Positions 68 to 18,034 of a stretch of DNA of 18,034 nucleotides are shown one piece after another. The stretch is taken from positions 1-18,034 of the forward strand of contig UQMI01000065.1 of NCBI GenBank assembly GCA_900542045.1. The letters run 5' to 3'. This DNA is from an uncultured Blautia sp. (lineage in GTDB: Bacteria > Bacillota > Clostridia > Lachnospirales > Lachnospiraceae). Position 1 is the first letter of the stretch. Every line of letters starts with the position of its first letter. The notes under the pieces were generated by a model. That model was not told the origin of the DNA and ran no database searches. It saw nothing but the letters and a program-made list of their open reading frames with translations. The position numbers and the translations under genes were made by a program.

Positions 68-126
68 CCAAAATCCCCTCCTTTTTTCACTCTGACACTG
101 CCACACTGCCAGGCAAGACTCCTTCC
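1..126. repeat. Direct repeat, left copy (DR-L)
   Basis: This stretch is nearly identical, in the same orientation, to 12839-12958. The first 78 bases differ at one position (C56 here, T12894 there). The remainder differs by a small change in a C/T-rich tract and by an extra 8-base unit here (ACACTGCC in tandem). Similarity stops after CCTTCC at 121-126. The repeat begins at the first base of the window, so it may continue to the left. It covers the 5' end of a small minus-strand reading frame and the first few codons of the MarR remnant. Confidence 0.95.
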
Positions 127-1474: not shown

Positions 1475-1501
1475 AAGCTCTCAACTTTCTCTCCTCTGCC
1501 T

Positions 1502-3124: not shown

Positions 3125-3184
3125 CACCTCTCTGTCTCATGGCAACTCAGATTGTTTCATTTTTCCGGTTTCCAGTTCAGAGAA

Positions 3185-4711: not shown

Positions 4712-4767
4712 CTGTCTCCAAATCCTTTCATCCTGATTATTATTATTAGAAAATTCACTTATTTTCT

Positions 4768-4776
4768 ATTATAGCA
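4768..4776 (-). promoter_or_regulatory. Probable extended -10 promoter for the regulatory unit
   Basis: Read on the minus strand this is TGC followed by a perfect TATAAT (ATTATA on the plus strand at 4768-4773). That matches the TGn-TATAAT extended -10 form. The best -35 at the usual distance is weak (TTAAAA). It lies 57 nt upstream of the GTG at 4711 and just after the activase gene, so the ATPase-regulator-kinase genes can be expressed apart from the catabolic operon. A short TTGGC/GCCAA inverted repeat overlaps the activase stop codon and could weaken read-through. Confidence 0.5.
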
Positions 4777-4792
4777 TACTCATTTGGCAATT

Positions 4793-5713
4793 TTAACCGC
4801 CAATTTTTACCGGCAGACCTGCCTCCTCCAGTTTCTGCTTATAGGGCAGTAATTCTTCATCTTTTACAGGAGGCAGTTCCCTACGCATATAATCCCGGTT
4901 CAGAGCATCATATTTACTGATTCCCAGATTATGATACGGAAGAAGATGGATCATTTTCAGTTTTTCAGTCTTCTGAATTTCTTCTGCAAATTTCGAAATC
5001 CTGCTGAAATTTTCTTCATCCATATTAAATTCAGGAATACATGGCACTCTCAGGGATACTTCTTTTCCCAGCTTTTCTGTCAGCATCCGAATATTCTCCA
5101 ACACTTTCTGATTGGAAACGCCCACCACTCTTTTATGGGCGTTTTCATCCATGTGTTTTATATCGATCAGAAAATGGTCCACATACGGCGCTAACTCAGC
5201 AAATACTTTCGTCGGCGCGATTCCATGTGTTTCCATTGCTGTATCCATGTCCTTTTCTTTACAGGCTTTCAGAAATTTCCATACAAATGCCGCCTGCAGC
5301 GTAGGCTCGCCGCCAGTCACAGTAACTCCTCCCCCTGTATTTTTGTAAAAAGGCATGTCTTTTTCAACTTCAGCAACCAGCTCCTCTACTGTAACCTCTC
5401 TTCCGAATATCTGATAACATTCCACCGGACAATAGCGCACGCATATGCCGCAAAATGTACATCTGCTCCGGTCCAGACGGTTTTCTTTTCCCGGCCGGAG
5501 CGCTTTCTCCGGACACTTTTCCATGCAAAGTCCACATTCTGTACATTTATGTGCCAGGAAAGAAATGTCCCACTGCATCTTCTGGGATTCCGGATTCGCA
5601 CACCAGGGACATTTCAGCTGACATCCCTTGAAAAATACATTGGTACGTATTCCCGGCCCGTCATGAATGCAGTATCTTTGTATACTGTAGATCACACCTG
5701 TCTCACTCATCAT
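4793..5713 (-). CDS. Glycyl radical enzyme activating enzyme (radical SAM)
   Basis: Radical SAM protein of 306 residues that would install the glycyl radical on the GRE encoded 10 nt upstream. The radical SAM cluster motif is CQLKCPWC (Cys31, Cys35, Cys38), near the N terminus as in PflA-type activases. It is followed by two ferredoxin-like [4Fe-4S] motifs, CTECGLCMEKCP (about 57-68) and CTFCGICVRYCP (about 85-96). This double-cluster insert is typical of activases for glycerol dehydratase-type GREs and absent from PflA itself. GGEPTLQ is the SAM-binding GGE motif. Two adjacent ATG codons (5713 and 5710) follow a GAGG ribosome site; either could start the protein. Function is oxygen-sensitive and cytosolic. 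Close spacing to the GRE indicates co-transcription. Confidence 0.95.
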   Translation of the reverse strand: MMSETGVIYSIQRYCIHDGPGIRTNVFFKGCQLKCPWCANPESQKMQWDISFLAHKCTECGLCMEKCPEKALRPGKENRLDRSRCTFCGICVRYCPVECYQIFGREVTVEELVAEVEKDMPFYKNTGGGVTVTGGEPTLQAAFVWKFLKACKEKDMDTAMETHGIAPTKVFAELAPYVDHFLIDIKHMDENAHKRVVGVSNQKVLENIRMLTEKLGKEVSLRVPCIPEFNMDEENFSRISKFAEEIQKTEKLKMIHLLPYHNLGISKYDALNRDYMRRELPPVKDEELLPYKQKLEEAGLPVKIGG

Positions 5714-5723
5714 TGATTCCTCA

Positions 5724-8093
5724 CTAAAAGCTCATTTCTGTCCGGTCGATGATATCATCCTGGATTGCCTTGTTCAAATCTACGAAGAAAGCAGTATAAC
5801 CGGCAACTCTTACTACCAGATCTCTGTATTTCTCCGGTTCCTTCTGGGCTTTGCGCAGAGTTTCCGCAGACACTACATTAAACTGGATATGGAATCCGCC
5901 GGCTTCAAAAAATGTCTTGATCAACGCTGCCAGCGATGCAATTCCTTTTTCCCCTTTCAGCGCATTGGGATGATATTTCTGATTGTACTGCGTTCCATTC
6001 GTCACCAGCACATGATCCAGATGCGCTACTGACAAGGCCGCCTGTGTAGGACCATTTTTCTCGGATCCATGACTTGGAGAACATGCTTCTGCAATCGGCG
6101 TATGCGCGTATCTGCCATTCGGCATTGCACCGCAGTCTTCTCCAAAGGGTACATTTGCCGAGTTGGAATATTGTCCGGGAACAAACACTCCTCCTCTGAG
6201 ATTCCGGTACTGTCCAACTTCATCGCAGAAATACGTCAGGATTTTTCTTGCAATCTCGTCCACATAGGGATCATTGTTTCCATATTTCGGCGCATCCTTC
6301 AGAAGCTGTACCCGGATATCTTCATACCCCTGAAAATCATGCTGCAAAGCTTCTACCAGCTGCCTCATGGTAAACGCCTTTTCCTCAAATACCAGTTTTT
6401 TCACTGCACAGAATGAATCTGCCACATCAGCAAGTCCCACGCCCTGCGGACCGTCATGGTTATACTTGGCTCCGCCGTCATGCACCTCTTTGCCGCGTCC
6501 GATGCAGTCTTCTGTAAAAGAAGTGATATAAGGAAGTGTTACCCATTTTGCATGCATGGTGTTCACCACATTTCCGATCTGAACCATATGGTGCATTGCC
6601 GTATGGAACTGTTGTTTAAATGCATCCACAAATTCCTCATAAGATTCCATATCCTCTGCGCGCTTTGTTTGGGGTCCCACCTGTTTTCCTGTAACCTTGT
6701 CAAATCCTCCGTCCATGGTGATCTCCAGGCATTTAACCAGATTAAAATAACCGGAATTTGCAAAATGGCACATCTGCCCCTGCAGCCCCATTTCCACACA
6801 GCCGGCTACCCCCCAGTTCCTCCGGGCATCTTCCATAGATACACCTCGGTTCATCAAAGAAGGAATGGCAATTTCGTCATTATACATAGCAGGCATTCCC
6901 AGACCTTCCCGGATTACCTCAGCGCATTTTTTCAAAAATGCAAAATCCGAATTCTTATGTATCCGCACACAGACAGACGGCTGCGGCAGTTTGACTCTCT
7001 TCGTGGTATCCAGACAGATATACGTCAGTTCATTCACAGAGTCTTCTCCGTTCTCATCTGTCCCCCCCAGGGTAATCGTCTGTGAAATCGGATGTCCGCC
7101 AAAATACCGGGAATCATCTTCGTTCCATACTTCAATGATTTCTCCGCATTTCAGCCAAAAGGAATCCATCAGTTCTTCTGCAAACTCACGGGAAAGCGTT
7201 CCATTCTCTCTGTCTTTCTGATAAAACGGCCACAGGAAAAAGTCCAGTCTTCCAACGGATAATCCAGTTCCATCCGATTCAATCTGTGCGATCAGCTGCT
7301 GAAACCAGGTACACTGTACAGCTTCATAAAAATCTCTCGGCGGGTAGTAGGGTACTCTCCGACAGTTAGAAGCAATCCGCAGCAGTTCCTCCCGGCGTAC
7401 AGGATCGCTTTGCGCCTGTGCCTGCTCCTCCGCCAGAGCTGCATAACGTTCTGCAAAAATCTTCACTGCTTCACATACAATAATGACTGCCCGGTATACT
7501 GAAATCTTTTCAAAATCTTCTGGTACTGCATAATCCATTTTCTCCAGATATGCTTCGCATTCCTTTTGAATTCCCTCGAATCCCGTTTTTAAGACTTTCT
7601 CAAAATTCAAAAGAAAATGCCCGGTTCCTTTTGCAAGGGTATAACTGCAGGTAAACATTTTGGATTCCATGCTGTCAATTGCATCCTGAGGAAGCAGCGC
7701 CATTGTTCTTTCATATACAGTTTTCCCTCTCCAATATTCTTCCACAGACCGTATTTGCTCTTTTGCCGATTCTGATATCAGGAAACGGGAACCCTGCCGC
7801 TTCTCAAATGTATCCAGTTCATTCAGGAACCAGAGATTGATCTGCGGATGCAGAGGCGCAGCGCGAAGGGCGCTTCCCTGATTGCCCACCAGCAGTTCAT
7901 CTTCATAAATATGAATCGTCATTTTGCTGAGAGTTTCCTTTAATGCCAGCGCTGCCCGGATCACGGGAGGCTCCTGTTCTGTTTTGCGGTAAGATTCCGT
8001 CCATAATACTGCCCGTTCCGGACAAATGATCGGATCCGTATTTACCAGCCGTTCTCTTATTCTTTTGCACCTTTCTGTCATTACTTCTGCCAT
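5724..8093 (-). CDS. Glycyl radical enzyme (pyruvate formate-lyase-like), substrate unassigned
   Basis: GRE of 789 residues, close to the roughly 787 of B12-independent glycerol dehydratase. The start is the ATG at 8093, 5 nt after AGGAGG, rather than an in-frame ATG 21 nt upstream. The active-site motif is AGCVEMG, giving the thiyl Cys432 and general-base Glu434. This Cys-x-Glu pattern belongs to dehydratases and lyases (glycerol/propanediol dehydratase, CutC, HypD, IslA, HpsG) and not to pyruvate formate-lyase, which has adjacent cysteines. The C-terminal radical motif is RVAGYTAFF (Gly765). Aligned from memory to glycerol dehydratase, the Asp447 position reads Asn446 (FANSGYFN), and the His281-Ser282 positions read Thr-Gly (GTGLSVGR). 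A simple glycerol/propanediol dehydratase is therefore unlikely. The RbsABC-type importer upstream suggests a sugar, sugar acid or polyol substrate. No aldehyde dehydrogenase or microcompartment gene is in the window. Confidence 0.93.
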   Translation of the reverse strand: MAEVMTERCKRIRERLVNTDPIICPERAVLWTESYRKTEQEPPVIRAALALKETLSKMTIHIYEDELLVGNQGSALRAAPLHPQINLWFLNELDTFEKRQGSRFLISESAKEQIRSVEEYWRGKTVYERTMALLPQDAIDSMESKMFTCSYTLAKGTGHFLLNFEKVLKTGFEGIQKECEAYLEKMDYAVPEDFEKISVYRAVIIVCEAVKIFAERYAALAEEQAQAQSDPVRREELLRIASNCRRVPYYPPRDFYEAVQCTWFQQLIAQIESDGTGLSVGRLDFFLWPFYQKDRENGTLSREFAEELMDSFWLKCGEIIEVWNEDDSRYFGGHPISQTITLGGTDENGEDSVNELTYICLDTTKRVKLPQPSVCVRIHKNSDFAFLKKCAEVIREGLGMPAMYNDEIAIPSLMNRGVSMEDARRNWGVAGCVEMGLQGQMCHFANSGYFNLVKCLEITMDGGFDKVTGKQVGPQTKRAEDMESYEEFVDAFKQQFHTAMHHMVQIGNVVNTMHAKWVTLPYITSFTEDCIGRGKEVHDGGAKYNHDGPQGVGLADVADSFCAVKKLVFEEKAFTMRQLVEALQHDFQGYEDIRVQLLKDAPKYGNNDPYVDEIARKILTYFCDEVGQYRNLRGGVFVPGQYSNSANVPFGEDCGAMPNGRYAHTPIAEACSPSHGSEKNGPTQAALSVAHLDHVLVTNGTQYNQKYHPNALKGEKGIASLAALIKTFFEAGGFHIQFNVVSAETLRKAQKEPEKYRDLVVRVAGYTAFFVDLNKAIQDDIIDRTEMSF

Positions 8094-8098
8094 ATTGT

Positions 8099-8157
8099 CC
8101 TCCTTCCGACGCATTTACCGCGTCAATAATGGTAGATATGGAAGTTTACTTCCATAT
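8099..8157 (-). promoter_or_regulatory. GRE 5' leader with ribosome site, small hairpin and 22-bp palindrome
   Basis: The GRE ribosome site (CCTCCT on plus, 8099-8104) is preceded by a 5-bp inverted repeat, GACGC/GCGTC (8108-8112 and 8120-8124). Beyond it is a perfect palindrome with 10-base arms ATATGGAAGT and ACTTCCATAT (8136-8145 and 8148-8157) around a TT centre. The palindrome could be a protein operator or an RNA hairpin that controls GRE translation. Which one cannot be told from sequence alone. Confidence 0.5.
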
Positions 8158-8217
8158 TTCATTCCTTCTGTTCTTTTTCATTATCAGAAACATACCATAC
8201 AGGTTCCGTATACTGAT

Positions 8218-8249
8218 ATGTCCCAACAGAATCATTTCTGCCGGGACAT
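8218..8249 (-). repeat. Strong stem-loop between binding protein and GRE genes
   Basis: Two 14-base arms (8218-8231 and 8236-8249) enclose a 4-base loop. As RNA from the minus strand, every position pairs if two G-U pairs are allowed. No U-run follows, so this is not a standard intrinsic terminator. It lies about 31 nt after the binding-protein stop. Hairpins at this place in ABC operons often protect the abundant binding-protein message from 3' decay; that role is inferred here. Confidence 0.6.
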
Positions 8250-8279
8250 ATGAGGGTTCACTTTATCACATACTCTGCT

Positions 8280-9305
8280 TTAAAATGTAGAGTCTGGATC
8301 ATAATAATCATCCACATTGGATGCATCAATAAAAACAGAATCCATACTGATATTCTTATCTACTGTTTCACCGTCAATTAACTGCATGGCAACCTGAACT
8401 CCCTTTGCTCCCGGGAAAGGATACGTGAAAGTTCCTACCATTTCTCCTGCTTTGATCGCTTCCAGCGCTTCCTTCTGTCCATCCACGCTGACAATCTTAA
8501 TTTCGTCTCTTTCCGCTGATTTACTCGCCTTTAAGGCACCCAGTGCCATAACGTCACACTGTGCGTAAATGACTTCGATTTCCCCTTCCGGATAAGCCTG
8601 CAGCAGGTTTTCCGTTACGGTAATGGCTTCGGATTCTGTCCAGTTGGCTGTCTGCTGGGAAACCAGTTCAATATCGGTTCCTTCGATCTTTTCCAGCATT
8701 GGCTCACTTCTGTCCCTGCATGGAGATGAGCCGGGTGTCCCCTGGATTTCCACTAATTTGGTATATCCGTTTTCTCCCATATATTTGACAAGAAATTCTC
8801 CTGCAGCTGCTCCGATATCCCGGTTATTTGCACCGATAAAGCATGTCCAGTCATCCCCTTCCAGTTCCCGGTCCAGTACGATCACATGAATCCCCTGATC
8901 ATATGCTTTCTTGCAGACATTGGTCAGCGGCTGACTTTCAATGGGGCTGATCAGAATCGCCTGCACGCCCTTTGTGATCAGATCTTCCACATCAGAAATC
9001 TGTTTTTCCGTATTCCCGTTTGCGTCTGTTATTGTCAGTTCCACTTCCGGATGTTTTTCTGCTTCTTTGGAAACATCTTCCACCAGGCCGGCCCTCCATG
9101 CCTGACTGGTCGTATCAATTGACATTCCGATCTTGTAAACTTTTCCTTCCTCAGAACTTGACTCGGTTTCCGAACTCTCCGCGTCTGCATTTTCTGTGGT
9201 TTCTGTCTGTGCCGCAGTGTCCTCGTCTCCTGAGGAACAACCTGTAAGCAGCATACTGGCTGTCATAATAGCCGCCATCCCCAATGCCATCAGTTTTCTT
9301 TTCAT
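8280..9305 (-). CDS. Sugar ABC transporter substrate-binding lipoprotein (RbsB-like)
   Basis: Extracellular binding protein of the periplasmic-binding-protein type 1 family. The start chosen is the ATG at 9305, 9 nt after AGGAGG (plus 9315-9320). An ATG at 9311 is only 3 nt from that site, and a longer in-frame start would overlap the permease gene and spoil the signal peptide. The N terminus is a lipoprotein signal (MKRKLMALGMAAIMTASM) ending in the lipobox LLTGC, with the lipidated Cys at residue 23. An acidic Ser/Thr/Glu-rich linker follows. The mature part has RbsB-like features: YKIGMSIDTTSQAW, a segment with ILISPIESQPL, VIVLDRELEGDD, and IYAQCDVMALGALKA. The ligand is probably a pyranose or furanose sugar or a polyol. 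It delivers ligand to the permease encoded just upstream. Confidence 0.94.
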   Translation of the reverse strand: MKRKLMALGMAAIMTASMLLTGCSSGDEDTAAQTETTENADAESSETESSSEEGKVYKIGMSIDTTSQAWRAGLVEDVSKEAEKHPEVELTITDANGNTEKQISDVEDLITKGVQAILISPIESQPLTNVCKKAYDQGIHVIVLDRELEGDDWTCFIGANNRDIGAAAGEFLVKYMGENGYTKLVEIQGTPGSSPCRDRSEPMLEKIEGTDIELVSQQTANWTESEAITVTENLLQAYPEGEIEVIYAQCDVMALGALKASKSAERDEIKIVSVDGQKEALEAIKAGEMVGTFTYPFPGAKGVQVAMQLIDGETVDKNISMDSVFIDASNVDDYYDPDSTF

Positions 9306-9324
9306 TTTCATATGCCTCCTTTTT

Positions 9325-10368
9325 TTATTTTTTTCGTTCCATAGAATTAAATACCACTGCCAATATGATAATTCCTCCGCGCACCACATACTGGTAATAA
9401 GTGGAAATATTCGCCAGATTCAGAATATTGTTAATGATACCAATAATAATCGCTCCAATAATGGTACCGCCAATTGTTCCCACACCTCCGGTCAGTTTGG
9501 CGCCGCCGATTACACACGCGGCAATGGCATTCATTTCAAACGATTCTCCCAGCGTGGGATCGCCGGTTGTGGTCCTGGCTGTCAGGATTATCCCTGATAC
9601 CGATGCCAGTACACCGCACAGGATATACGCCCAGGTTTTATATTTGTCCACATTGATGCCCGCCACTCTGGCTGATTCCTGATTTCCTCCGATTGCTTTG
9701 ATATAACGTCCAAATATGGTACGGTTCAGCAGGAAAGCCATGATCAATCCTACGATCACTAACACCAGCACCTGTGTCGGAATTCCAAATATGATTCTTC
9801 CGTCTCCCAGAAACTGTACTTTTTCTGCAGTCTCTGAACTCATATAAATCGGTTTTCCATTGGAGATCAGCAAAGCGACTCCACGATATAAAGTCAGTGT
9901 TCCAATGGTCATAATAAAAGGCTGTACTTTTGCCTTGCAGATTACAATACCATTAAACAGCCCCCAGATTCCGCCAAAGATCATCAGGATCAAAATAGCG
10001 ATGACCAGACCGGCTCCGCCGCCTGGAACCAGTTTGCTTAAAATCCGGACGAGACCCTGAAACGGTCCCACAGCCGATTCCGGATCATACAGTGCGGCAA
10101 ACAATACGGAAGTAATGCCCACCACCGATCCAATGGAAATATCAATTCCCCCGGTAATAATAACCATCAGCAGGCCAATGGACAAAATACCGTTGGCTGC
10201 TACCTGACGCAGCACATTTAATATATTACTGGATGTAAAAAACGCATCCGAAATCAGTGATGCCAGGATAATCATTACCAACAGCACTATAACGGAACTA
10301 TATTTGTCCAGGATCATCTTCCCAATGGAAAACGCCTTATGATTTACATTTTCTTTTAACTTATCCAC
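9325..10368 (-). CDS. Sugar ABC transporter permease (RbsC-like)
   Basis: Integral membrane permease of about 347 residues, BPD_transp_2 (RbsC/MglC) type. The start chosen is GTG at 10368, one base after the ATPase stop codon and about 8 nt after a GGGGGA ribosome site. An upstream in-frame ATG at 10434 would add a charged segment antisense in character to this family and overlap the ATPase gene. About nine or ten hydrophobic helices can be seen, beginning with SSVIVLLVMIILASLISDAF. The family hallmark GLLMVIITGGIDISIGS is present, as is the cytoplasmic coupling region around AIGGNQESARVAGINVDK that contacts the ATPase. It probably works as a homodimer. The final residues (FNSMERKK) end 19 nt before the binding-protein start. 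Confidence 0.94.
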   Translation of the reverse strand: MDKLKENVNHKAFSIGKMILDKYSSVIVLLVMIILASLISDAFFTSSNILNVLRQVAANGILSIGLLMVIITGGIDISIGSVVGITSVLFAALYDPESAVGPFQGLVRILSKLVPGGGAGLVIAILILMIFGGIWGLFNGIVICKAKVQPFIMTIGTLTLYRGVALLISNGKPIYMSSETAEKVQFLGDGRIIFGIPTQVLVLVIVGLIMAFLLNRTIFGRYIKAIGGNQESARVAGINVDKYKTWAYILCGVLASVSGIILTARTTTGDPTLGESFEMNAIAACVIGGAKLTGGVGTIGGTIIGAIIIGIINNILNLANISTYYQYVVRGGIIILAVVFNSMERKK

Positions 10369-10369
10369 G

Positions 10370-11866
10370 CTACATTCCCCCTGTTGCCATTCCCAAAATA
10401 TTTTCTTCCGTTGCTTCCTCTCTGGAAATCTCACCGGTCAGTTTTCCACTGTGCATAACCAGTATCCGGTCACTCATTCCAATCACCTCAGGTAACTCAG
10501 AGGAAATCATAATGACTCCACAGCCGTGGTCAGCCATGTCCTGAATAATTTTATAAATTTCAGTCTTTGTTCCCACATCCACACCTCTTGTGGGCTCATC
10601 CACAATGATAATCTTCGACTGAGACATCATCGCCCGGGCAATCATAACTTTCTGCTGGTTTCCTCCCGAAAGGTCTCCCACTGCCTGCGCCGGCCCTGCA
10701 CATTTTACCCGGAGTTTTCCCAGATATTCTTCAATTACCTTTGTTTCTTTCATTCTGGAGATCACGCCCAACCGGCAAAGTCTGGGCAGAATGGAAATCG
10801 ACAGATTATCGCCGATGGAGGCCTTCAGAAACAGTCCGTCTCCTTTTCTGTCCTCTGTAATATAAACAATTCCCGCATCCAGAGCCTCTTTTGCCTGCTT
10901 AAAATGTACTTCTGTTTCACCCAGAAAAACCTTTCCTTCATCCAGCGGATCAATTCCAAAGATTGTCCTGCAGATTTCACTTCTTCCAGAACCTACCAAT
11001 CCGGAAAAACCAAGGATTTCACCTTCCCGAAGGGAAAAGCTCACATCTTCGAATACGCCTTTGCGGGTCAGATGTTCCACTTTCAGACAGACTTTCCCCG
11101 GTTTTTTCTGCTTTTCCGGATAGATATTTTTTATTTCCCGTCCTGTCATCATGGAGATCAGCCGGTCTTTCGTCACATCTTTCATATCGCACGTTCCTAC
11201 GTAAGTGCCGTCTTTCAACACCGTACAGCGATCGGCAATCTCCACCAGTTCCTCCAGTCTGTGAGAAATATAAATAATACTTCTGCCCTGTTTTTTTAAT
11301 TTGCGGATCAACTGAAACAGAACTTCCGTTTCCGGAAGAGTCAGAACAGAAGTCGGTTCATCCATTACAATAATCCGCGCATTCATGGAGACTGCCTTTG
11401 CAATTTCCACAAACTGCTTCTGCGCCACACTGAGTTCACCTGTCATTTTTTCCGGATCGAATTCTACGCCCACTGCTTTCATGGCGTCTTTCACCTGTTC
11501 CAGGACTTCCTTTTTCTTAATAATTCCTCTCTGATTTGGGATACGCCCCAGAAGAATGTTATCCGCTACCGTCAGGCAGTTTACAAGAGCCTGCTCCTGG
11601 TAGATCACCGCTATCCCCTGCCGCTGTGCCTGTATAGGAGAAGAAATCTGTATTTTCTTCCCATCCATATACATTTCGCCTTCATCCATCCGATAGGAAC
11701 CGCCCAGGATTTTCATAAGAGTGGATTTTCCGGCTCCATTTTCACCCAGGAGCGCATGTACCTCTCCTTCCTGTATTTCCAGATTTACGCCATCTAACGC
11801 CTTAACCCCGCCAAAGCGCTTTTTAATATTTTTCATTTCCAATACATTCGGACGAATTGCAATCAC
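10370..11866 (-). CDS. Sugar ABC transporter ATP-binding protein (RbsA/MglA-like)
   Basis: Tandem ABC ATPase of 498 residues, the first gene of the catabolic operon. The N-half has Walker A GENGAGKST (41-49), signature ELSVAQKQ, Walker B IIVMDEPTS and the H-loop ISHRLEE. The C-half has the degenerate Walker A GLVGSGRSE normal for this family, the signature LSGGNQQK and Walker B IIVDEPTRGVD. These are intact, unlike the paralog at 3185-4711. The start is a GTG preceded by a purine-rich AAAGGGAGAGGG; the next in-frame ATG (codon 11) has no good ribosome site. It powers import through the adjacent permease. The stop and the permease GTG are one base apart, which suggests translational coupling. 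Confidence 0.95.
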   Translation of the reverse strand: MIAIRPNVLEMKNIKKRFGGVKALDGVNLEIQEGEVHALLGENGAGKSTLMKILGGSYRMDEGEMYMDGKKIQISSPIQAQRQGIAVIYQEQALVNCLTVADNILLGRIPNQRGIIKKKEVLEQVKDAMKAVGVEFDPEKMTGELSVAQKQFVEIAKAVSMNARIIVMDEPTSVLTLPETEVLFQLIRKLKKQGRSIIYISHRLEELVEIADRCTVLKDGTYVGTCDMKDVTKDRLISMMTGREIKNIYPEKQKKPGKVCLKVEHLTRKGVFEDVSFSLREGEILGFSGLVGSGRSEICRTIFGIDPLDEGKVFLGETEVHFKQAKEALDAGIVYITEDRKGDGLFLKASIGDNLSISILPRLCRLGVISRMKETKVIEEYLGKLRVKCAGPAQAVGDLSGGNQQKVMIARAMMSQSKIIIVDEPTRGVDVGTKTEIYKIIQDMADHGCGVIMISSELPEVIGMSDRILVMHSGKLTGEISREEATEENILGMATGGM

Positions 11867-11891
11867 CCCTCTCCCTTTGTATTCTGTTATT

Positions 11892-11919
11892 ATTATAAAA
11901 GAATCCCCTCTGTCGCCAA
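11892..11919 (-). promoter_or_regulatory. Sigma-A-type promoter of the transporter-GRE operon
   Basis: On the minus strand TTGGCG (plus 11914-11919) and a perfect TATAAT (plus 11892-11897) are separated by 16 nt. The -10 lies about 26 nt upstream of the GTG at 11866. It is the only well-formed promoter seen ahead of the ATPase-permease-binding protein-GRE-activase genes, which have no other convincing internal promoter. Confidence 0.7.
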
Positions 11920-11971
11920 AAGGAGATAAAAGTCAGAAAAGGTGTCTTTAATCCAGAAAATGTACTTGCAT

Positions 11972-11991
11972 TTACAGCTCCACAACTGTAA
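11972..11991. promoter_or_regulatory. Possible operator upstream of the catabolic promoter
   Basis: Six-base arms TTACAG and CTGTAA are separated by 8 bases, about 53 bp upstream of the -35 element. The position suits an activator such as the AraC-type response regulator in this cluster. No second copy was noticed elsewhere, so this is a weak call. The rest of 11920-12131 shows no reading frame or recognisable element. Confidence 0.25.
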
Positions 11992-12131
11992 GAAACGCAA
12001 AGCCTAGGATGTCATTTACTGGAAACGTAAAAAAACGATTAAGATGCTAGCAAAATAAATATTACTTTAATCTGCTCCAGCTAATGAAAAAAAAGCCACC
12101 GGACAGGTTTCCCCATACGGCGACAGATATT

Positions 12132-12410
12132 TTATTTTGCAGAATAAGGCGTGTATGACCCAATACAGACCACTGTTAGAACCAGCACATCCTCTTCTAT
12201 ACGATAAATAAGTAGCCAATCCGGAAGGATATGACATTCCCGATGTCCCACACAATCACCAGCCAGATTATTTATGATCTCAGTTCTTCTCCGGCAACGG
12301 TTCACCCAGCGCCAGCAACGCCATTACCTGTTCCAACAATTTGATTTTTCGTCCGCGCTTGATCGCCCGCTTGCGGTCCTTCTTCAAACCAGTTGTGCAC
12401 TTAACAGCAT
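12132..12410 (-). pseudogene. YafQ-family toxin remnant (type II toxin-antitoxin)
   Basis: The minus strand reads KYAVKCTTGLKKDRKRAI and on through LLEQVMALLALGEPLPEKN before an in-frame TGA. After another stop and a frame change it resumes as GHRECHILPDWLLIYRIEED, then LVLTVVCIGSYT, ending at TAA 12134-12132. These are the hallmarks of YafQ/RelE mRNA interferases, including the GEPLPEK..DH and H-I-L-P-D-W-L-L-I-Y segments. The C-terminal catalytic His-x-Asp-Leu-Phe-like end is replaced by SYTPYSAK. With two stops, a frame change and no own start codon, the toxin is inactive. It would once have cleaved mRNA at the ribosome. Confidence 0.82.
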
Positions 12411-12443
12411 ACTTATATTCATATTTATTGCATTCTCAGCCAT
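12408..12443 (-). pseudogene. DinJ/RelB-family antitoxin N-terminal stub
   Basis: An ATG at 12443, about 7 nt after AAGGGAG, begins MAENAINMNISM, the usual opening of DinJ-type antitoxins. The sequence then passes directly into the N-terminal coding region of the YafQ remnant, out of frame. A deletion has therefore removed nearly all of the antitoxin. The loss of both antitoxin body and toxin activity fits joint decay of the module. Confidence 0.6.
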
Positions 12444-12471
12444 ATCAACGCTCCCTTCTGCTTGTGCTTTC

Positions 12472-12500
12472 AGTATATATCGTTTGCGCGAAGATGCCAA
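12472..12500 (-). promoter_or_regulatory. Intact promoter of the dead dinJ-yafQ module
   Basis: TTGGCA (plus 12495-12500) and TATACT (plus 12472-12477) are 17 nt apart on the minus strand. The -10 is 29 nt from the antitoxin ATG. It should still fire, producing RNA across the remnant toward 12130. The stretch 12444-12634 upstream holds no gene that I recognise, though a minus-strand frame runs through it from about 12581. Confidence 0.6.
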
Positions 12501-12634
12501 ACAATCTGCTCGAATAATTTCCGTTTGATTCATAAAAATAGCTCCTGCATGATGCCTGTTGCCATACATTTGAATATCCATCAGTCAAGTGCCAGAATCA
12601 TGAGAGTGACTCTGATAAAAAGTCGGTTTCCTGA

Positions 12635-12905
12635 TTACGCAGACCTCACGGAACTATCTTTTTTTTGTATAATCCGTATAAAAACAGCAATCACCCACAG
12701 GATCAGGAAGCCTATCCACGTTTCCCATACAGGGAAAAAATAGTCCCACAAAAAATCCTTATCTCCAAACAGCAATGGAAGGCAAATGCATAACAGTTCA
12801 CTTCCCAGCTGCCAAACCAGATACTTTACCAATTCCCGAAATGTGGGCAGCAGATGTTCTTTAACGGAAAAACAGAGCAGCACGATTTCTCTGTTTTTCG
12901 TTCAT
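12635..12905 (-). pseudogene. Small membrane protein gene, frameshifted near its start
   Basis: An open frame of about 82 codons (12883 to 12635) encodes an unrecognised protein. It has an amphipathic start (VKEHLLPTFRELVKYLVW), a short hydrophobic segment (LLCICLPLLFG), and a clear membrane helix (TWIGFLILWVIAVFIRII) with a basic end. The only codon at its head is a GTG with no good ribosome site. A proper ATG at 12905 with a G-rich upstream region lies one frame off and stops after 14 codons. A lost or gained dinucleotide in the AGAGAAA stretch would reconcile the two. The left copy at 1-67 carries the same lesion. Use of the GTG as a real start cannot be excluded. Confidence 0.5.
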
Positions 12906-12958
12906 CCAAAATCCCCCTTTTCTTTTTCACTCTGACACTGCCAGGCAAGACTCCTTCC
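12839..12958. repeat. Direct repeat, right copy (DR-R)
   Basis: Matches 1-126 in the same orientation, with one substitution in the first 78 bases, a length change in a C/T tract, and one ACACTGCC unit instead of two. After CCTTCC the two sites diverge completely: the left copy runs into the MarR remnant, while this one runs into noncoding sequence. Repeats and intervening DNA span about 12.8 kb. Confidence 0.95.
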
Positions 12959-12996
12959 GATTACCCACGCACTTAAAATTTTGATCTTATACAATC

Positions 12997-13025
12997 AGTA
13001 TAGCCTCACCAGAATTCGAAAGCAA
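12997..13025 (-). promoter_or_regulatory. Promoter facing the small membrane protein remnant
   Basis: TTGCTT (plus 13020-13025) and TATACT (plus 12997-13002) are 17 nt apart on the minus strand, about 92 nt upstream of the ATG at 12905. It lies outside the direct repeat, so the left copy does not have it within this window. No gene was found in 12959-13291; apart from this promoter and a plus-strand candidate at 13172-13202 the stretch appears noncoding. Confidence 0.5.
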
Positions 13026-13171
13026 GAAAGACCCTCTCGCTAATATGCCAAAAAAAGAACAAAGCGGTTCGGTCCTTTCAAACACGTACATTTACGACAG
13101 AACCACGGCTTTTCATGTCGCTTATGATAGAATCAAACTATTAAACGAAGGGAGATTTATTTTACCAGGAA

Positions 13172-13202
13172 TTGCAGATTCCGTCTGAAAATATGATATA
13201 AT
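13172..13202 (+). promoter_or_regulatory. Possible plus-strand promoter in a gene-free gap
   Basis: A perfect TATAAT at 13197-13202 is preceded by TGA (TGn extended -10), with TTGCAG at 13172-13177, a spacing of 19 nt. Transcription would run into the hairpin at 13292-13333 about 90 nt later. Only a very short frame with GTG or TTG start after AAGGAGG (near 13260) lies between, encoding about 14-16 residues. A small RNA or a remnant leader are the options. Confidence 0.3.
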
Positions 13203-13291
13203 CTCCATATCAGGAACCGTTGCCTATATCGAAAATATATATTTTGTAATCCACGCAATAAGGAGGGGTGAATTTGAACTCCGCCCCTAAA

Positions 13292-13333
13292 AATCCCCCC
13301 TATTTTTCATCAATTTGAAAAATAAGGGGGATT
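13292..13333 (-). terminator. Intrinsic terminator downstream of the MATE operon
   Basis: Two 18-base arms (13292-13309 and 13316-13333) pair with one mismatch around a 6-base loop. In minus-strand RNA the odd pair becomes G-U, and the stem is followed by a run of five U. It should stop transcription coming from the MATE gene and the small frame after it. Confidence 0.75.
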
Positions 13334-13377
13334 ATTATTCTGTCTATATCTGGGATCAACAGCAACGGAGAATCCCT

Positions 13378-13470
13378 TTATATGGATCCGGGGGAAGACT
13401 CTCTGATCTCCGCCCTTATCATTTCCATATCCCGATTCAGATACAGCTCTCTCAGCTCTTTTTTTATCAT
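13378..13470 (-). CDS. Small frame after MATE, possibly a truncated gene
   Basis: A 30-codon frame starts at ATG 13470, 6 nt after a perfect AGGAGG and 17 nt beyond the MATE stop codon. It encodes MIKKELRELYLNRDMEMIRA, then EIRESSPGSI. The charged, helical opening resembles the N terminus of small phage or conjugative-element proteins (DUF1492-like), but this is a weak impression. The body of such a protein would be missing. The good ribosome site argues that something was once translated here. Confidence 0.45.
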   Translation of the reverse strand: MIKKELRELYLNRDMEMIRAEIRESSPGSI

Positions 13471-13487
13471 ATACGTCCTCCTGCGTC

Positions 13488-14675
13488 TTATGCTTTTTCG
13501 ATACTTTTCATGGTCTTTTTAAACTGAACCGCAAACAAAATTGCCGTAAATGTCACAGCTATCGTATCTGCAATGGGTTCCGCCATATAAACTGCCATAG
13601 TCTGATTTCCTTTCAGGATCTGGGGCATGAGATAAATCAGCGGGATCAAAAGCACAAATTTTCTCATGACCGCAACTACAATGGATTCCGTTGCTTTTCC
13701 CAAAGCATTAAAGGTCATCTGGCAGGCCATCTGGATACCCATCAGGAACATGGCTGCCATATAGATGCGCAATGCCATCTTCGTATATTCCATCAGCTGG
13801 GCATCGGACGTAAACATAGCGGCAAAGCCTCCCGGGAACAGCATGACCAGAGCCCACAAAAGCACAGCATACCCCAGACTGACTTTCAGCAAAAGCTTAA
13901 ATGCCGCGCGGACTCTGCCGGCATCACCAGCTCCATAGTTGTAGCTGATGATCGGCTGAGCCCCCTGTCCAAGTCCCTGAAGGGGGAGCATGGCAAACTG
14001 CATAACACTGGTAAGAATCGTCATGGCGCCAACAGCGATGTCTCCGCCGTATTTCTGCAGGGAACTGTTAAAGCACACGGAAATAATACTCTCGCTGGCC
14101 TGCATGATAAATGTGGCAACCCTCAATGCCAGACACGGCATGATGATTTTGGGAACCAGTCCCAGATTTTTTCTTTTAATTTTCAGAAACGTTTTCTTTC
14201 CGCAGAGGAAGCTTACTACCCAGATACAGGAAAGAGCCTGGGAAATAATCGTTGCCAGAGCAGCGCCCCTTACGTCCATATCGAATCCAAAGATGAAGAT
14301 CGGGTCCAGGATGATATTCGTAACTGCACCGATCAGAACGGAAAGCATTCCTGTCTTTGCAAATCCCTGGGCCGTGATAAACGCGTTCATTCCCAGTGTA
14401 AGCTCCACAAAAATTGTTCCCAGCGCATAAATATTCATATAGCTGACGGCATATTCGATCGTGTTCTCACTGGCACCGAATGCCATAAGTAAATCTCTGT
14501 TCCAGATCAGTAAAACAGCAGTCAGAAGGATGGAAATTACAATCTGCAGCGTAAAACAGTTTCCCAGAGTCTTTTCTGCCGATTCCTTATCCTTTTTTCC
14601 CATGAAAATCGATGCTCTGGGGGCACCGCCATAACCCACCAGTGCCGCAAATGCGGACACGATCATGATCAGCGG
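13488..14675 (-). pseudogene. MATE-family efflux transporter, 3' part of a split gene
   Basis: About 395 residues of a multidrug and toxin extrusion (MATE) transporter, which exports drugs or cations by Na+ or H+ antiport. Homology begins abruptly at PLIMIVSAFAALVGYGGAPR, within what should be transmembrane helix 2 of a protein of about 450 residues. It then continues through typical segments such as FGASENTIEYAVSYMNIYAL and ELTLGMNAFITAQGFAKTGM to the normal C terminus. About 50-60 N-terminal residues are missing. Upstream of 14675 an open frame continues to a TTG at 14732, but it encodes unrelated residues with no ribosome site. The missing start region is found at 17933-18034 on the same strand, so the gene has been split by inserted DNA. 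Confidence 0.85.
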
Positions 14676-14720
14676 CACCCGTATGTCAAGCACACGACAA
14701 AAAATATATCTCTGCAAAAG

Positions 14721-14765
14721 CAGAAATCCCAAACTACCAATAGATTTGATAGTCTGGGGTTTCTG
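14721..14765 (-). terminator. Long hairpin after the AAA-TOPRIM gene
   Basis: Arms at 14721-14738 and 14748-14765 (18 bases each) enclose a 9-base loop. In minus-strand RNA all but one position pair when two G-U pairs are counted. It lies about 45 nt after the ATPase stop and close to the island edge. The U-rich tract is not directly adjacent, so it may terminate or protect the transcript, or be an end structure of the island. Confidence 0.5.
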
Positions 14766-14810
14766 TTTTCATTAAATTCTATGCCTTCAATAAAGCTAAT
14801 TATTGTAATA

Positions 14811-16562
14811 TCAGCTAACCAAAAAAGCTCTTAGAGCATCGACAAATTTCCAAATGGCCTTGTTTTCATCATATTCAATATCAAACAATTTGTTCAACGC
14901 TTTTGATATCCATTTAGATTTATTTGAAGACCTTTCAAGATCATAATCGACCAACCAGGACTCCAGTTCTCCGACATTTACAATAAATAACCCAATATTA
15001 GCGCAACAGGACCAGAGAGTATCAAAGTTATTTTGGAGTGCATCCGGTAATGCTGCCCGTCCATTCTTTTTAAATTCAGACAGCTCATCTGACTCATCTC
15101 TGAGCTTTTTTAAATTTTGTCTGAAATCAAATAATGCACTCGCAATATCATCGGGATCAGCAGTTTCGAGAATTGTAGTCCGTTCAGCAAGTTCTTTAGT
15201 TTTAGCTTGAAGGTCACACAAAATCTCATACTTATTCTGACTCTGAAAATGGTTTATTATTGCTTCTCGTTCTTCAAGCGCTTGGTTTTTTACCTGATCG
15301 TCTGGTGTTATTTGTAGTATGTCTGTAAATTCACGCTTATCCCTAATCACATCAGCATCTGCAATCATAGCGAATTTGATGCCAAGTTTTTTGTATGGGT
15401 CTATAATCTTCTTCAAAGTTTGCTTGTTATGGGCGTTAACAAAGTGCACCTCATCAGCAGATCCAATTTTTTGAAACAGTCGATGATAAAATACTGCATC
15501 TGCATCAGCTTCTGTTGCAACAACGCCTTTGTAAAACATGCCTTCTAGAACTCTTGAAGAAGATAGCAAAGGATCAGTAATTATTTGATTGAGGGTAGCG
15601 GAATCAAGAACATTTGCCTCCGTAACATTCTCAACTCTATCAAGATGAATAATTACAGCATCCCTTGTAGAACTCAAAAGCCCCCTTAGAAAATCTGCGC
15701 TATGAGTTGCAATAAAAATTTGTTGGGACGGCTCAACAAGTCCAGAAATAATCTCACCTAACTGCAGTGCCTGAGGTGGATGCAGAAACGCTTCTGGTTC
15801 ATCAAGTAAAAACACAGGTTTTTTGGCAGATACAATGGCGCTAATCATTCCCAAGACACTTCTTAAACCATCTCCTTGAGTATCTAATATCTGGTATCCA
15901 GATAGTTGCTCAAATGCTTCTTGTGGATTGTTAGAAACAAGGGAGAAATCATCCCCTACTTTGAATTCCAATGTTCCCAAATTGAATGGATTAAGGAATA
16001 TATCAATACCAAAAATCTTACGAATACACTCTCTAACAGTTTCTGTTGAGGATGAGCCAGAAATATAGAGGGCTTCTAAAACGTTTTTTGCTCCTCGTTT
16101 ATGTAAATTTTGCTGCACAGGCTGGCTCATTGCCAATTTCAATCGATTATCTGTATTTAGATAAGTTACCAATCCTGCTCCGGTTGCAGCACGAAACGCG
16201 CGTTTATCACGAACTAACCAATTTGACAATGTAGTTAAAATATCAGGATAAGTAGGTCCCGTAGGATCGCTATCTAATGTTGGGGCAATATGACGTAACT
16301 GTTTGCTTTGGTTTGTTTCAACTATTTTCATATCATAGGCTTGTTCTATTGCATCCCATGATTCAGGATAGGGAACTTCTAACTCATTTAAGATAACAGT
16401 AGGTGCTCGTGTTCCTGTTATGTATCCCAGCATATCTTTCAACAACTGTGTCTTGCCACAATTATTGGCACCAACAAAAACATTGATCCTTCCAGGCGTA
16501 AAAGGCTCCCCCTTTTTTAGACAAACAGAATTTATTCTATATATGTAGGTAGCTTCATCCAT
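14811..16562 (-). CDS. AAA ATPase-TOPRIM protein, OLD-like putative nuclease
   Basis: Protein of 583 residues. An ABC/SMC-type ATPase domain has Walker A GANNCGKT (31-38), Walker B FLLDEPEAFLHP (251-262) and an H-loop in IATHSADFLRG (284-294). A TOPRIM-like domain follows: VVATEADADAVFYHRLF, matching the E-x-x-x-D pattern (Glu351, Asp355), and AMIADADV, the D-x-D pair (Asp402, Asp404). These are the metal-binding residues of OLD-family nucleases. The remaining roughly 160 residues include a coiled-coil-like charged region and GELESWL (531-537), a motif common near the end of OLD-like proteins. The start ATG has GAGGAGG 9 nt upstream. OLD-type proteins act in phage defence alone or with partners (UvrD helicase in Gabija, reverse transcriptase in some retrons). 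No such partner is here; the neighbour is a Fic protein. A nuclease role is inferred from motifs. Confidence 0.85.
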   Translation of the reverse strand: MDEATYIYRINSVCLKKGEPFTPGRINVFVGANNCGKTQLLKDMLGYITGTRAPTVILNELEVPYPESWDAIEQAYDMKIVETNQSKQLRHIAPTLDSDPTGPTYPDILTTLSNWLVRDKRAFRAATGAGLVTYLNTDNRLKLAMSQPVQQNLHKRGAKNVLEALYISGSSSTETVRECIRKIFGIDIFLNPFNLGTLEFKVGDDFSLVSNNPQEAFEQLSGYQILDTQGDGLRSVLGMISAIVSAKKPVFLLDEPEAFLHPPQALQLGEIISGLVEPSQQIFIATHSADFLRGLLSSTRDAVIIHLDRVENVTEANVLDSATLNQIITDPLLSSSRVLEGMFYKGVVATEADADAVFYHRLFQKIGSADEVHFVNAHNKQTLKKIIDPYKKLGIKFAMIADADVIRDKREFTDILQITPDDQVKNQALEEREAIINHFQSQNKYEILCDLQAKTKELAERTTILETADPDDIASALFDFRQNLKKLRDESDELSEFKKNGRAALPDALQNNFDTLWSCCANIGLFIVNVGELESWLVDYDLERSSNKSKWISKALNKLFDIEYDENKAIWKFVDALRAFLVS

Positions 16563-16596
16563 GTGTGCTTTCCTCCTCTTTTTGTGTCTTGCTCAT
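16555..16596 (-). CDS. Possible 13-codon leader peptide before the ATPase gene
   Basis: An ATG at 16596, shortly after an AAGGGA ribosome-like site, opens MSKTQKEEESTHG and stops at TGA 16557-16555. It overlaps the ATPase start at 16562 by 8 nt. The arrangement would allow translational coupling. The peptide could equally be chance, since the AGGAGG of the ATPase lies inside it. Confidence 0.25.
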   Translation of the reverse strand: MSKTQKEEESTHG

Positions 16597-16606
16597 ACTT
16601 CCCTTG

Positions 16607-16633
16607 AAAATGCCAGTCAGTGTCTGGCATTTT
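16607..16633 (-). terminator. Hairpin between fic and ATPase genes (attenuator or terminator)
   Basis: Perfect 10-base arms AAAATGCCAG and CTGGCATTTT (16607-16616 and 16624-16633) surround a 7-base loop. On the minus strand the stem ends in four U. It lies 45 nt upstream of the ATPase start, so it could terminate fic transcription partially and set the level of the ATPase. Confidence 0.6.
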
Positions 16634-16645
16634 AGACTGCTCCAC

Positions 16646-16672
16646 AATTTAACAGACAATGTCTGTTAAATT
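16646..16672. promoter_or_regulatory. 27-bp near-perfect palindrome over the fic stop codon
   Basis: Thirteen-base arms AATTTAACAGACA and TGTCTGTTAAATT flank a single base. It overlaps the fic TAA (16671-16673). The core ACAGACA-TGTCTGT looks like a dimeric regulator operator. A weak minus-strand promoter may overlap it (TTGTCT, then TAAAAT 19 nt later), in which case binding would repress the ATPase gene. As RNA it would form a hairpin with an impossibly tight loop, so a DNA-level role seems more likely. Confidence 0.5.
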
Positions 16673-17795
16673 ACATATTATCAATATATAGCCGATGTGA
16701 AATCAATGCATATTCCCACATGCGATTCCGCTCGCCGTCACCGATTTGAGTGACAAACTTATGCTCTTGCAAAAAATGCATGGCTTTTGACACCGAATTA
16801 AATGATAAGCCTGTATGCTTCGCAGCGGACGAAACCGTTGTTATGGGAAATCTTCTTAAGTATTTGAAGACAGAATAGACACTTTTAGGCTGGCCTCCAA
16901 TGTGCATCAGTCGATCCTCGGCTTCGGTAATAGCTTGTTCATACTGTATCAATTGTTCAGCAGATTGCTTTGCTGCCTGGCCTATAGCATTAACAAAAAA
17001 CTTGATCCACCGAATATAACCACCGCTGTACTGGGTAGTCCGAAGTAAATCAAAGTATTCATTTTTATTATGATACAAGTACTCGGACAAGCATATCAGC
17101 GGCCGTGCCTCTTCAACGACATCATGCAGTATCATCGACATAAGGATCCGCCCGATAATACCGTTATACCGTTCAAATGGATGGATCATTTCAAATTGGT
17201 AATGTACCAGTGCTGCCTTAATTAGCGGATCAGTATTATGGTCGTTATAGAGATATGCAGAAATATCAGCCAGTGCCGGGAGCACAGCATCCGGTGCTGT
17301 AGGGTTGTATCCTTTGAGATTCGTCTTTGCACCCAGCCAAAAGGTTTGATGATCCCTAACATCTATCGAGTTATCCTCTGATTCTCCGTTAAGTGCGATA
17401 CCGCAAATCCGGCTCAAGTCAGGAGCTGCGACTTCCATACTTTTTGCCGCCTTAAATGCCATTTCCAGGTTAGCGATCGGCGTTATATCACCTTTGCCGG
17501 TGCCGCGGATAGTGAGTATTTCTTTGAAATCGGGACCGTCGTAGTCGATCATATGGGAATAGGTACACTCTTTCAAAAGCATCAGCTCCGCAAATGCTTC
17601 TTTATTCGGAGCATACTTAACAAGCCCTTCCAGAAAGCTAATGTTCCTGTGGGCTTCAATCAGTAAAGCAGCCAATTCGTCATCCATCTGATACATACCC
17701 CCGCGCATCAGGGGACGCGGGGTAAAGGAATAGAATGTAAGGCTTGGCTTTTCGGGATCAAAATGTTCCGTGTAATCACCTGTGTAGGGCAGCAT
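16671..17795 (-). CDS. Fic-domain protein with C-terminal winged helix, divergent active site
   Basis: Protein of 374 residues with the usual layout of Fic-wHTH proteins: an N-terminal Fic_N helix region (LLIEAHRNISFLEGLVKYAP, about 44-63), the Fic core, and a C-terminal winged helix (about 305-362: ITTVSSAAKHTGLSFNSVSK, then GERNRMWEY). Fic enzymes transfer AMP or other phosphate-containing groups to target proteins and often act as toxins. The catalytic motif reads HPFERYNGIIGR (205-216) against the canonical HPFxxGNGRxxR. His205, Asn211 and the last Arg216 are kept, but Gly is Tyr210 and the first Arg is Ile213. The usual autoinhibitory SSxIEG aligns to SHMIDY (80-85), with Asp84 in place of Glu. 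Start: ATG 17795 with GAGG 8 nt upstream. It is the first gene of the island and is followed by the AAA-TOPRIM gene after 108 bp. Activity and target are unknown. Confidence 0.88.
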   Translation of the reverse strand: MLPYTGDYTEHFDPEKPSLTFYSFTPRPLMRGGMYQMDDELAALLIEAHRNISFLEGLVKYAPNKEAFAELMLLKECTYSHMIDYDGPDFKEILTIRGTGKGDITPIANLEMAFKAAKSMEVAAPDLSRICGIALNGESEDNSIDVRDHQTFWLGAKTNLKGYNPTAPDAVLPALADISAYLYNDHNTDPLIKAALVHYQFEMIHPFERYNGIIGRILMSMILHDVVEEARPLICLSEYLYHNKNEYFDLLRTTQYSGGYIRWIKFFVNAIGQAAKQSAEQLIQYEQAITEAEDRLMHIGGQPKSVYSVFKYLRRFPITTVSSAAKHTGLSFNSVSKAMHFLQEHKFVTQIGDGERNRMWEYALISHRLYIDNM

Positions 17796-17856
17796 CGCAT
17801 ATACCTCAACAACAAATAGTCATTTTCAGTATATCATTGACACAGTGAATAGAAAA

Positions 17857-17898
17857 GAACTATTTCTTGATTTATCTCAGAAAACCAAGAAATAGTTC
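17857..17898. repeat. 13-bp inverted repeat upstream of fic
   Basis: Perfect arms GAACTATTTCTTG (17857-17869) and CAAGAAATAGTTC (17886-17898) are separated by 16 bases. The structure lies 62-103 bp upstream of the fic start and just upstream of a TATACT -10-like element (minus strand, about 17832). It may be an operator for the Fic winged helix or an end structure of the island, whose edge is only 35 bp away. Confidence 0.65.
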
Positions 17899-17932
17899 AA
17901 TAAAAATCGAAAATCGAGTTTCACGAATTAGC

Positions 17933-18034
17933 CATACACACGCCAACTCCGGTCAGCGCAGTCGCTCCGATTCCCGGAATATAGCCGCTATGATCGCTGG
18001 CAGGAAGAAAAAGGGGAGTTGATGCCGCTGCCTT
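17933..18034 (-). pseudogene. MATE-family efflux transporter, 5' fragment of the split gene
   Basis: Read from the window edge on the minus strand, the sequence encodes YIPGIGATALTGVGVCM, the end of helix 1 and start of helix 2 of the MATE protein whose remainder is at 13488-14675. Upstream bases include LPAIIA in a neighbouring frame. The roughly 15 residues normally between LPAI and the YIPG motif are missing, so the fragment also seems to have an internal deletion or frame change. After the Met codon the sequence leaves MATE homology and meets TGA at 17923-17921. The true start codon should lie beyond 18034. Confidence 0.7.

Follow-up and report, generated by a model that had tools for sequence, protein, structure and literature searches.

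An insertion that splits a MATE transporter gene

The window, an 18,034-nucleotide stretch of DNA from an uncultured Blautia sp. (contig UQMI01000065.1), contains a 3,255-bp element (14678–17932) that interrupts a gene for a MATE transporter and is bounded by two copies of a CA core (Table 1). The element carries a gene for a Fic protein and a gene for an OLD-like AAA ATPase with a TOPRIM domain. A first-pass annotation, made from the sequence alone, had described a 3.26-kb segment splitting the MATE gene; its coordinates proved exact to the base, with CA at both junctions, and both genes lie where it had placed them. They are the only genes we recognized within the element, which agrees with its description of them as the sole cargo, and a tblastn search (E ≤ 0.01) detected no serine-recombinase homolog inside, consistent with its remark that a recombinase was lacking. 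The GC content of the element is 39.7%, compared with 44.8% in window bases 1–14000.

Comparison with relatives that carry an intact MATE gene, as the annotation had suggested, showed that the insertion is real and fixed its ends. Rejoining the flanks once at CA yields GATCATGATCAGCGGCA followed directly by TACACACGCC, the sequence of uninterrupted MATE sites elsewhere (e.g., GATCATGATCAGCGGCATACATACGCC at locus L159). The site pattern was matched in 9 of the 13 MATE loci examined, and the reading frame continues across the insertion site in 3 of 5 loci. On the left, the MATE open reading frame continues up to the end of the element; beyond the right end only about 17 MATE codons are visible, as a short N-terminal piece. 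The CA core was also found at L218, L219, L220, and L248. Upstream of the MATE piece, the final ~45 bases of the window (17990–18034) are not MATE-like, reflecting either a second rearrangement or a contig-end artefact.

Table 1 Features of the element and of the interrupted gene in the window (aa, amino acids; MFE, minimum free energy)
Feature	Position	Strand	Remarks
Interrupted MATE gene, C-terminal part	13488..14675	-	PF01554; uninterrupted homologs L155, L157, L158
Left CA core copy	14676..14677	.	Target half GATCATGATCAGCGG to the left; flanks rejoin once at CA
Element left end	14678..14709	+	CCCGTATGTCAAGCACACGACAAAAAATATAT; 84% match to MT837243.1
Terminator-like inverted repeat just inside left end	14720..14769	.	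Similar stretch in L183, L046, L118, and the G119 cassette
OLD-like AAA ATPase + TOPRIM, exchangeable effector (predicted)	14811..16562	-	583 aa; PF13304, PF13175, PF20469, all above cut-off
Hairpin pair	~16608..16672	.	AAAATGCCAG..CTGGCATTTT and TTTAACAGACA..TGTCTGTTAAA; between Fic and effector; folding MFE z -2.85
Fic protein, SoFic-like layout	16671..17795	-	374 aa; degenerate motif HPFERYNGIIGR; PF02661 E 2.9e-11; PADLOC SoFic 2.2e-52
Inverted repeat, operator-like, between right end and Fic start	17857..17898	.	GAACTATTTCTTG..CAAGAAATAGTTC; same in L216; similar layout in L217–L219
Element right end, from core inward	17908..17932	-	GCTAATTCGTGAAACTCGATTTTCG; next to Fic in 6/6 relatives despite different flanks
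Right CA core copy	17933..17934	.	Flanks rejoin once at CA
MATE N-terminal piece, short	17935..17989	-	Translation YIPGIGATALTGVGVCM compared with relatives

The OLD-like protein retains the sequence features of its family and is a predicted ATPase-nuclease. In its ATPase portion, G31xNNxGKT, D254E255P256E257, and H287 are invariant in 29 aligned sequences, and we take these residues, by their usual motif names, to be those of an ABC-type ATPase. Its TOPRIM portion scores 28.8 bits against PF20469 (cut-off 23.2), with E351, D353, D355, D402, and D404 likewise invariant in the 29 sequences. The GajB-type helicase neighbor of Gabija systems was not found, Fic and the ATPase being the only genes recognized in the cassette. 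The window ATPase had no match in viral contigs, and among 200 genomes of the family 57 had matches at E ≤ 1e-3, with a clear homolog in G001 only.

The Fic protein aligns to the SoFic structure 3eqx over residues 161–290, which sets its motif opposite HPFIDGNGRTGR. The annotation had pointed to His205 as an active-site residue; the histidine is present, but the active site around it is degenerate and departs from the SoFic motif HPFx[D/E]GNGRxGR. None of the 120 Fic homologs among the matches listed has D/E at position 5 or R at position 9; the motif reads HPYEAGNGIVGR in L220 and HSFERYNGIVGR in L217. In the standard Fic motif, these acidic and Arg residues hold Mg2+ and phosphate; because both are missing here, ordinary AMP transfer by the window Fic is predicted to be unlikely. 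These substitutions also bear on the idea that Fic itself is the defence toxin, causing abortive infection by SoFic-like AMPylation with the other genes as passengers. The PADLOC SoFic model does match the protein, and Sofic is reported to protect by AMPylation (PMC12249575), but the window Fic scores 88 bits against the NCBIfam SoFic equivalog, where the cut-off is 550, and together with the altered motif this makes a SoFic-like toxin improbable. In E. coli, SoFic is reported to be followed by a gene for a small antitoxin of 47 aa, AS1 (PMC12249575); in the window, the 108-bp gap between Fic and the ATPase is shorter than 47 codons and has two hairpins inside it.

A family of Fic-headed cassettes

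Searching 299 genomes of the family with the window Fic found five close relatives, and a sixth, in G400, was added by the left-end search described below; the genome sample is mostly of this one family, and genus-level searches gave nothing further. Among 392 genomes of the order, Fic matches at E ≤ 1e-40 occurred in seven; identity was 28–32% in six of these, which we did not take as close relatives, and in viral contigs there was one 24% match and none close by the Fic alignment search. The source names of some Fic homologs are Anaerostipes faecis and Hungatella hathewayi, which we place in Lachnospiraceae, and we therefore assign the cassettes to gut Lachnospiraceae.

All six sister elements have the window type of left end and the same kind of right end, which brings the total to seven cassettes, each headed by Fic, with five kinds of predicted anti-phage gene. 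Core to core, the window cassette (Fic, OLD-type ATPase-TOPRIM) measures 3,255 bp, those of G296 and G298 4,018 bp each (Fic, RhuM, caspase), that of G154 5,057 bp (Fic, RhuM, a broken KAP gene), that of G400 5,059 bp (Fic, RhuM, a 733-aa KAP protein), and that of G178 6,549 bp (Fic with an internal TGA, RhuM, a 1315-aa nSTAND protein). The G119 cassette is split over two contigs: one has the right end and Fic (78% identical) and stops 114 bp past Fic, and the other begins with the left end and a gene for a 578-aa PtuA/retron-TOPRIM-like AAA protein. The G119 flanks from the two contigs fit HDIRH/SHVSHLI (here and below, a slash marks the insertion point), and its cargo is taken from the second contig, across the gap. 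No serine-recombinase match (E ≤ 0.01) was found in the six delimited cassettes (3.3–6.5 kb) or the two G119 pieces. RhuM matches PDC-S05 (2e-176), the caspase PF00656, KAP the PifA model (8e-84), the nSTAND protein nSTAND5 with weak LmuA/Cap4 similarity, and the G119 protein PtuA / RT-Toprim; by these matches, the cargo resembles known or candidate defence families.

The right end travels with Fic. The two occur together in all five genomes found by Fic and in G400, and all seven cassette copies, which sit at different sites, have the Fic start 132–138 bp from the core; the right end is most diverged in L220 (G178). Exact right-end matches in 397 genomes numbered six, comprising five Fic cassettes and one match inside another gene without Fic. 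Allowing one mismatch gave matches in 29 of the 397 genomes, fewer than a reversed control (~80 genomes, by eye), so we weighed only the six exact matches. Two further sets of candidates were taken as chance: 13 matches of the right-end 16-mer in viral contigs, whose contexts did not look cassette-like by eye, and the only phage- or plasmid-collection records matching the right-end stretch, two of Citrobacter phage Moon (E 0.02).

The first-pass annotation read Fic and the OLD-like ATPase as one two-gene defence or toxin-regulator system. The genes are adjacent and co-oriented, AGGAGG precedes the ATPase start, and G119 likewise joins Fic to an AAA-TOPRIM-like protein, albeit a different one. 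The window type of ATPase, however, lies beside Fic in none of the six other genomes with a close Fic (0/6, with the G119 cargo taken from its second contig), an outcome that the annotation itself had named as counting against the pair, and the two ATPase relatives with DNA context, L001 and L002, have no Fic, although only 287 bp upstream are visible in L001. A hairpin pair that elsewhere lies at the cassette end also separates the two genes in the window. Fic + OLD is thus rejected as a conserved pair, and the two probably do not form a new two-gene system; what stands of the annotation is the inserted, compact, recombinase-less, and transferable defence-type cassette. Judged by these comparisons of sequence, Fic belongs to the element and its effector is exchangeable.

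The operator-like repeats noted in the annotation are genuine palindromes; the one upstream of Fic has 17-nt arms that are 94% complementary. The window hairpin pair is more stable than shuffled sequence and matched no Rfam family at gathering score. Hairpins AACAGA..TCTGTT and AAAATGCCAG..CTGGCATTTT adjoin the left end in three cassettes (G296, G298, G119), whereas in the window they stand between Fic and the ATPase, which suggests that the ATPase may have been added past an older cassette end.

Comparison of cassettes shows that the body of Fic is kept and its C-terminal part, from about residue 291, is replaced. Counting from the right end, window and G119 DNA are 91–98% identical in eight of the first ten 100-nt bins (78% and 84% in the other two); past 1,000 bases, from about Fic codon 290, identity is 46–49% in three bins and 60% in the last, partial bin, and the left ends of the two cassettes agree again over the first ~90 bases. 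Cassettes G298 and G154, with different effectors, are 98.6% identical at the right end, 95% over Fic 1–200, 74% over Fic 201–290, and 82% at the C-terminus; G154 and G400, which have the same KAP, are 81% identical at the right end, 98% over Fic 201–290, and 95% at the C-terminus. Overall, the Fic C-terminus is 98% and 95% identical in pairs with the same effector but 82% and 50% in pairs with different effectors, although the right ends of the latter are 99% and 95% alike. RhuM is 95–99% alike among G154, G296, G298, and G400 irrespective of effector.

The same mosaic was seen in a wider set of 110 of the 120 Fic homologs among the matches listed (length 360–392). Among 428 pairs at least 90% identical over residues 1–285, 169 fell below 50% over residues 295–370, compared with none (0/428) over a control stretch inside the matched part (residues 100–185). 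A C-terminus that had only diverged fast would be hard to reconcile with the sharp DNA step between window and G119, and recombination is therefore the simplest reading, in which the Fic gene looks like a recombination hinge. Between RhuM and caspase, L217:9707–9778 and L219:9247–9318 hold a copy of Fic residues 34–57, preceded by a Met codon (24 residues, 88–92% identical to the window Fic), which could be a small Fic-like peptide or a recombination scar; this region of Fic may hold a class-2 inhibitory helix.

The left end, its target box, and the possible source of a recombinase

In a distant search of phage and plasmid collections, the window matched a single record, MT837243.1 (L003, 1–7347), through its left end alone. 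In that record, an element splits a tyrosine-integrase gene at HDLRH and opens with three genes for large serine recombinases of 513, 549, and 557 aa, each with PF00239, PF07508, and PF13408. It is labelled "Bacteriophage sp."; by eye, nothing phage-like was recognized among its other genes.

Left ends were searched for with the pattern TATGTCAAGCNNANGACAAAA, which replaced a 14-base pattern whose matches, among those listed, were mostly chance. It matched 33 viral-contig stretches and, in the genus of G030, 2 of 20 genomes; in the family of G030, it matched 17 ends in 14 of 397 genomes. Serine-recombinase homologs lie on the fetched piece in 31 of the 36 non-window left-end loci, with all three recombinase types at ≥40% identity in 23 of the 36; of the remaining five loci, four are cut short by a contig end close to the element end, and longer sequence (L194) reveals homologs at the fifth (L178). 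Of the 17 family ends, 4 belong to Fic cassettes and 8 have triplet recombinases, whole or in fragments; 2 show neither, and 3 are cut by contig ends. No Fic match was found in the 36 left-end loci or in 20 triplet-element regions, most of which stop short of the right end. The triplet left ends closest to that of the window, alike over >100 bases, are L046, L118, and L183. Genome G178 holds one Fic cassette and two complete triplets; the latter (G178:C2 177447 and 229728; L249, L250) are in inverted orientation with an identical 32-base left flank, and tyrosine-recombinase sequences lie near one of them.

The target is shared as well. We compared 49 distinct left flanks of 45 bases, those of the window and the cassettes among them. 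In 46, the closing bases spell HxxR and the first two letters of a His codon, which is the HDLRH box (HxxR/H), the active-site box of tyrosine recombinases. Five flank pairs rejoin at CA, reading HDQRHTHA, HDLRHSLA, HGLRHTHA, HDIRHSHA, and HELRHIRN, the last being the joined site of the G400 cassette, in a gene without a Pfam match. Read antisense, the window MATE site encodes DHDQRHTHA (HDQRHTHA in the series above) and is one base from CATGATCTGCGGCA, the site of the L183 element. Given this resemblance to the HDLRH box, the element appears to have entered MATE off target, at an antisense mimic of the tyrosine-integrase box.

Two explanations of the missing recombinase compete with movement in trans. 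The cassette could be the decayed remains of a full triplet element whose recombinases were deleted, as left ends with broken recombinase fragments (G323, G374, and G400:C19) and one with a lone RhuM gene (G307) might suggest. Decay nevertheless appears quite improbable when set against seven compact cassettes at different sites, with a conserved right end, Fic at a nearly fixed distance from it, and no detectable serine-recombinase remnant; moreover, both autonomous-type right ends that we resolved differ from that of the cassettes, so that simple internal deletion does not yield a cassette. This same difference favors the second possibility, in which another, unseen recombinase moves the cassettes and their left end is common with triplets by descent only. 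We consider that doubtful, as the left half-site, the CA core, and the HxxR target box are all as in triplet elements.

Weighing these points, we conclude that the element is probably a recombinase-less 3.26-kb Fic + AAA-TOPRIM cassette with a triplet-type left end, likely moved in trans, with a predicted anti-phage function. Several observations pull in the other direction. The two autonomous-type right ends, from a ~70-kb element in G316 and a remnant in G400:C19, read ...ACCGTAACGG/CA, as opposed to ...TTAGN/CA in the cassettes; they are the only two available for comparison with the window, so that triplets that would accept both cassette ends are candidate helpers. Both were located with integrase C-terminal probes, which found none in the G374 regions, and regex searches for right ends of autonomous triplets also found none. 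Right ends of the candidate helper triplets L046, L118, and L183 were looked for and not found. Two left ends, in G307 and G281, have neither Fic nor recombinase, some copies are decaying (the TGA in the G178 Fic; the G154 KAP gene, broken into two frames), no excised circle was seen, and the anti-phage role is a prediction.

The two left ends in G307 and G281 differ in content. In L240 (G307:C40), RhuM stands alone 31–1020 bases inside the left end, in what may be a remnant or a minimal cassette. In L242 (G281:C4), a RelE/YafQ-like and RelB/DinJ-like pair of toxin-antitoxin type (named by eye) lies ~100–670 bases inside and is followed by integrase-like HLRHTYA sequence.

Elsewhere in the window, positions 395–11866 encode a two-component system, two ABC ATPases, a ribose-type permease, and a substrate-binding protein, some of them named by eye. 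They also encode a 796-aa glycyl radical enzyme (TIGR01774) and an activase for it (TIGR02494). The former scores under every specific equivalog cut-off shown, and we read the region as a sugar or polyol operon.

Proposed mobility and relation to known elements

We propose that a triplet of serine recombinases, if present in the cell that carries the cassette, would cut it out, joining its ends at CA to give a circle with the predicted junction ...TTAGN-CA-CCCGTATGTCAAG..., and would insert it into another HxxR/H box. As a rule, this box would be formed by the active-site codons of a tyrosine integrase; here it would be the antisense mimic in MATE. Homologous recombination in the conserved right end and Fic body would swap the Fic C-terminus and the effector jointly. 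Fic, with its degenerate active site, would serve as a sensor or controller rather than carry out standard AMP transfer, while killing or phage restriction would fall to the OLD-type ATPase-nuclease.

Triplets of serine integrases with 2–8 bp repeats are reported from streptococcal integrative and conjugative elements (ICEs; Ambroset et al. 2016, PMC4701971). The streptococcal elements resemble those studied here in that their end carries three genes for large serine recombinases, in intragenic insertion, and in 2–8 bp direct repeats, but the targets given there are mutT, traG, and hsdM instead of HxxR boxes of tyrosine-recombinase-like genes (PMC4701971). The window cassette shares the left end sequence and CA core of triplet elements and, unlike them, has neither a recombinase nor conjugation genes.

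Non-autonomous relatives of ICEs include cis-mobilizable elements (CIMEs) and integrative mobilizable elements. The window cassette is CIME-like in being short, with att-type ends of ICE type and no recombinase or transfer genes of its own, only Fic and the ATPase being recognized between the ends; the cassettes differ in their constant Fic head, their exchangeable defence effector, and a right end unlike the two autonomous-type ones. With OLD nucleases, Gabija GajA, and the retron Eco8 effector, the ATPase shares an AAA ATPase and a TOPRIM on one chain, but its partner is Fic and no helicase, reverse transcriptase, or AriB accompanies it. With SoFic, the Fic protein shares a Fic domain plus C-terminal domain, a similar length, and the 3eqx alignment (PMC12249575), and differs in its degenerate motif, its location next to a second effector on a mobile cassette, and a C-terminal part swapped between cassettes. 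Among the titles and abstracts listed for the open-access literature, we found no description of Fic-headed recombinase-less cassettes.

The window element thus belongs to a wider set of Fic-headed cassettes of predicted defence function that lack a recombinase and are linked to triplet elements through their left end and their target. More tentatively, such cassettes may be recombinase-less defence satellites of gut Lachnospiraceae-type bacteria that ride on triplets and insert within the active-site codons of tyrosine integrases, each jump disabling the integrase of another mobile element and arming the cell with an interchangeable effector, with the altered Fic as universal head, controller, and hinge. 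If this is correct, they would be a vehicle that moves single defence effectors among gut bacteria without a recombinase of its own, and their attachment box would be the code for the catalytic site of a rival recombinase class. Fic proteins with HPFE[RQ]YNG would serve as a marker gene for cassettes and new effectors in metagenomes, and the question of why degenerate Fic proteins precede unrelated defence effectors would become testable.

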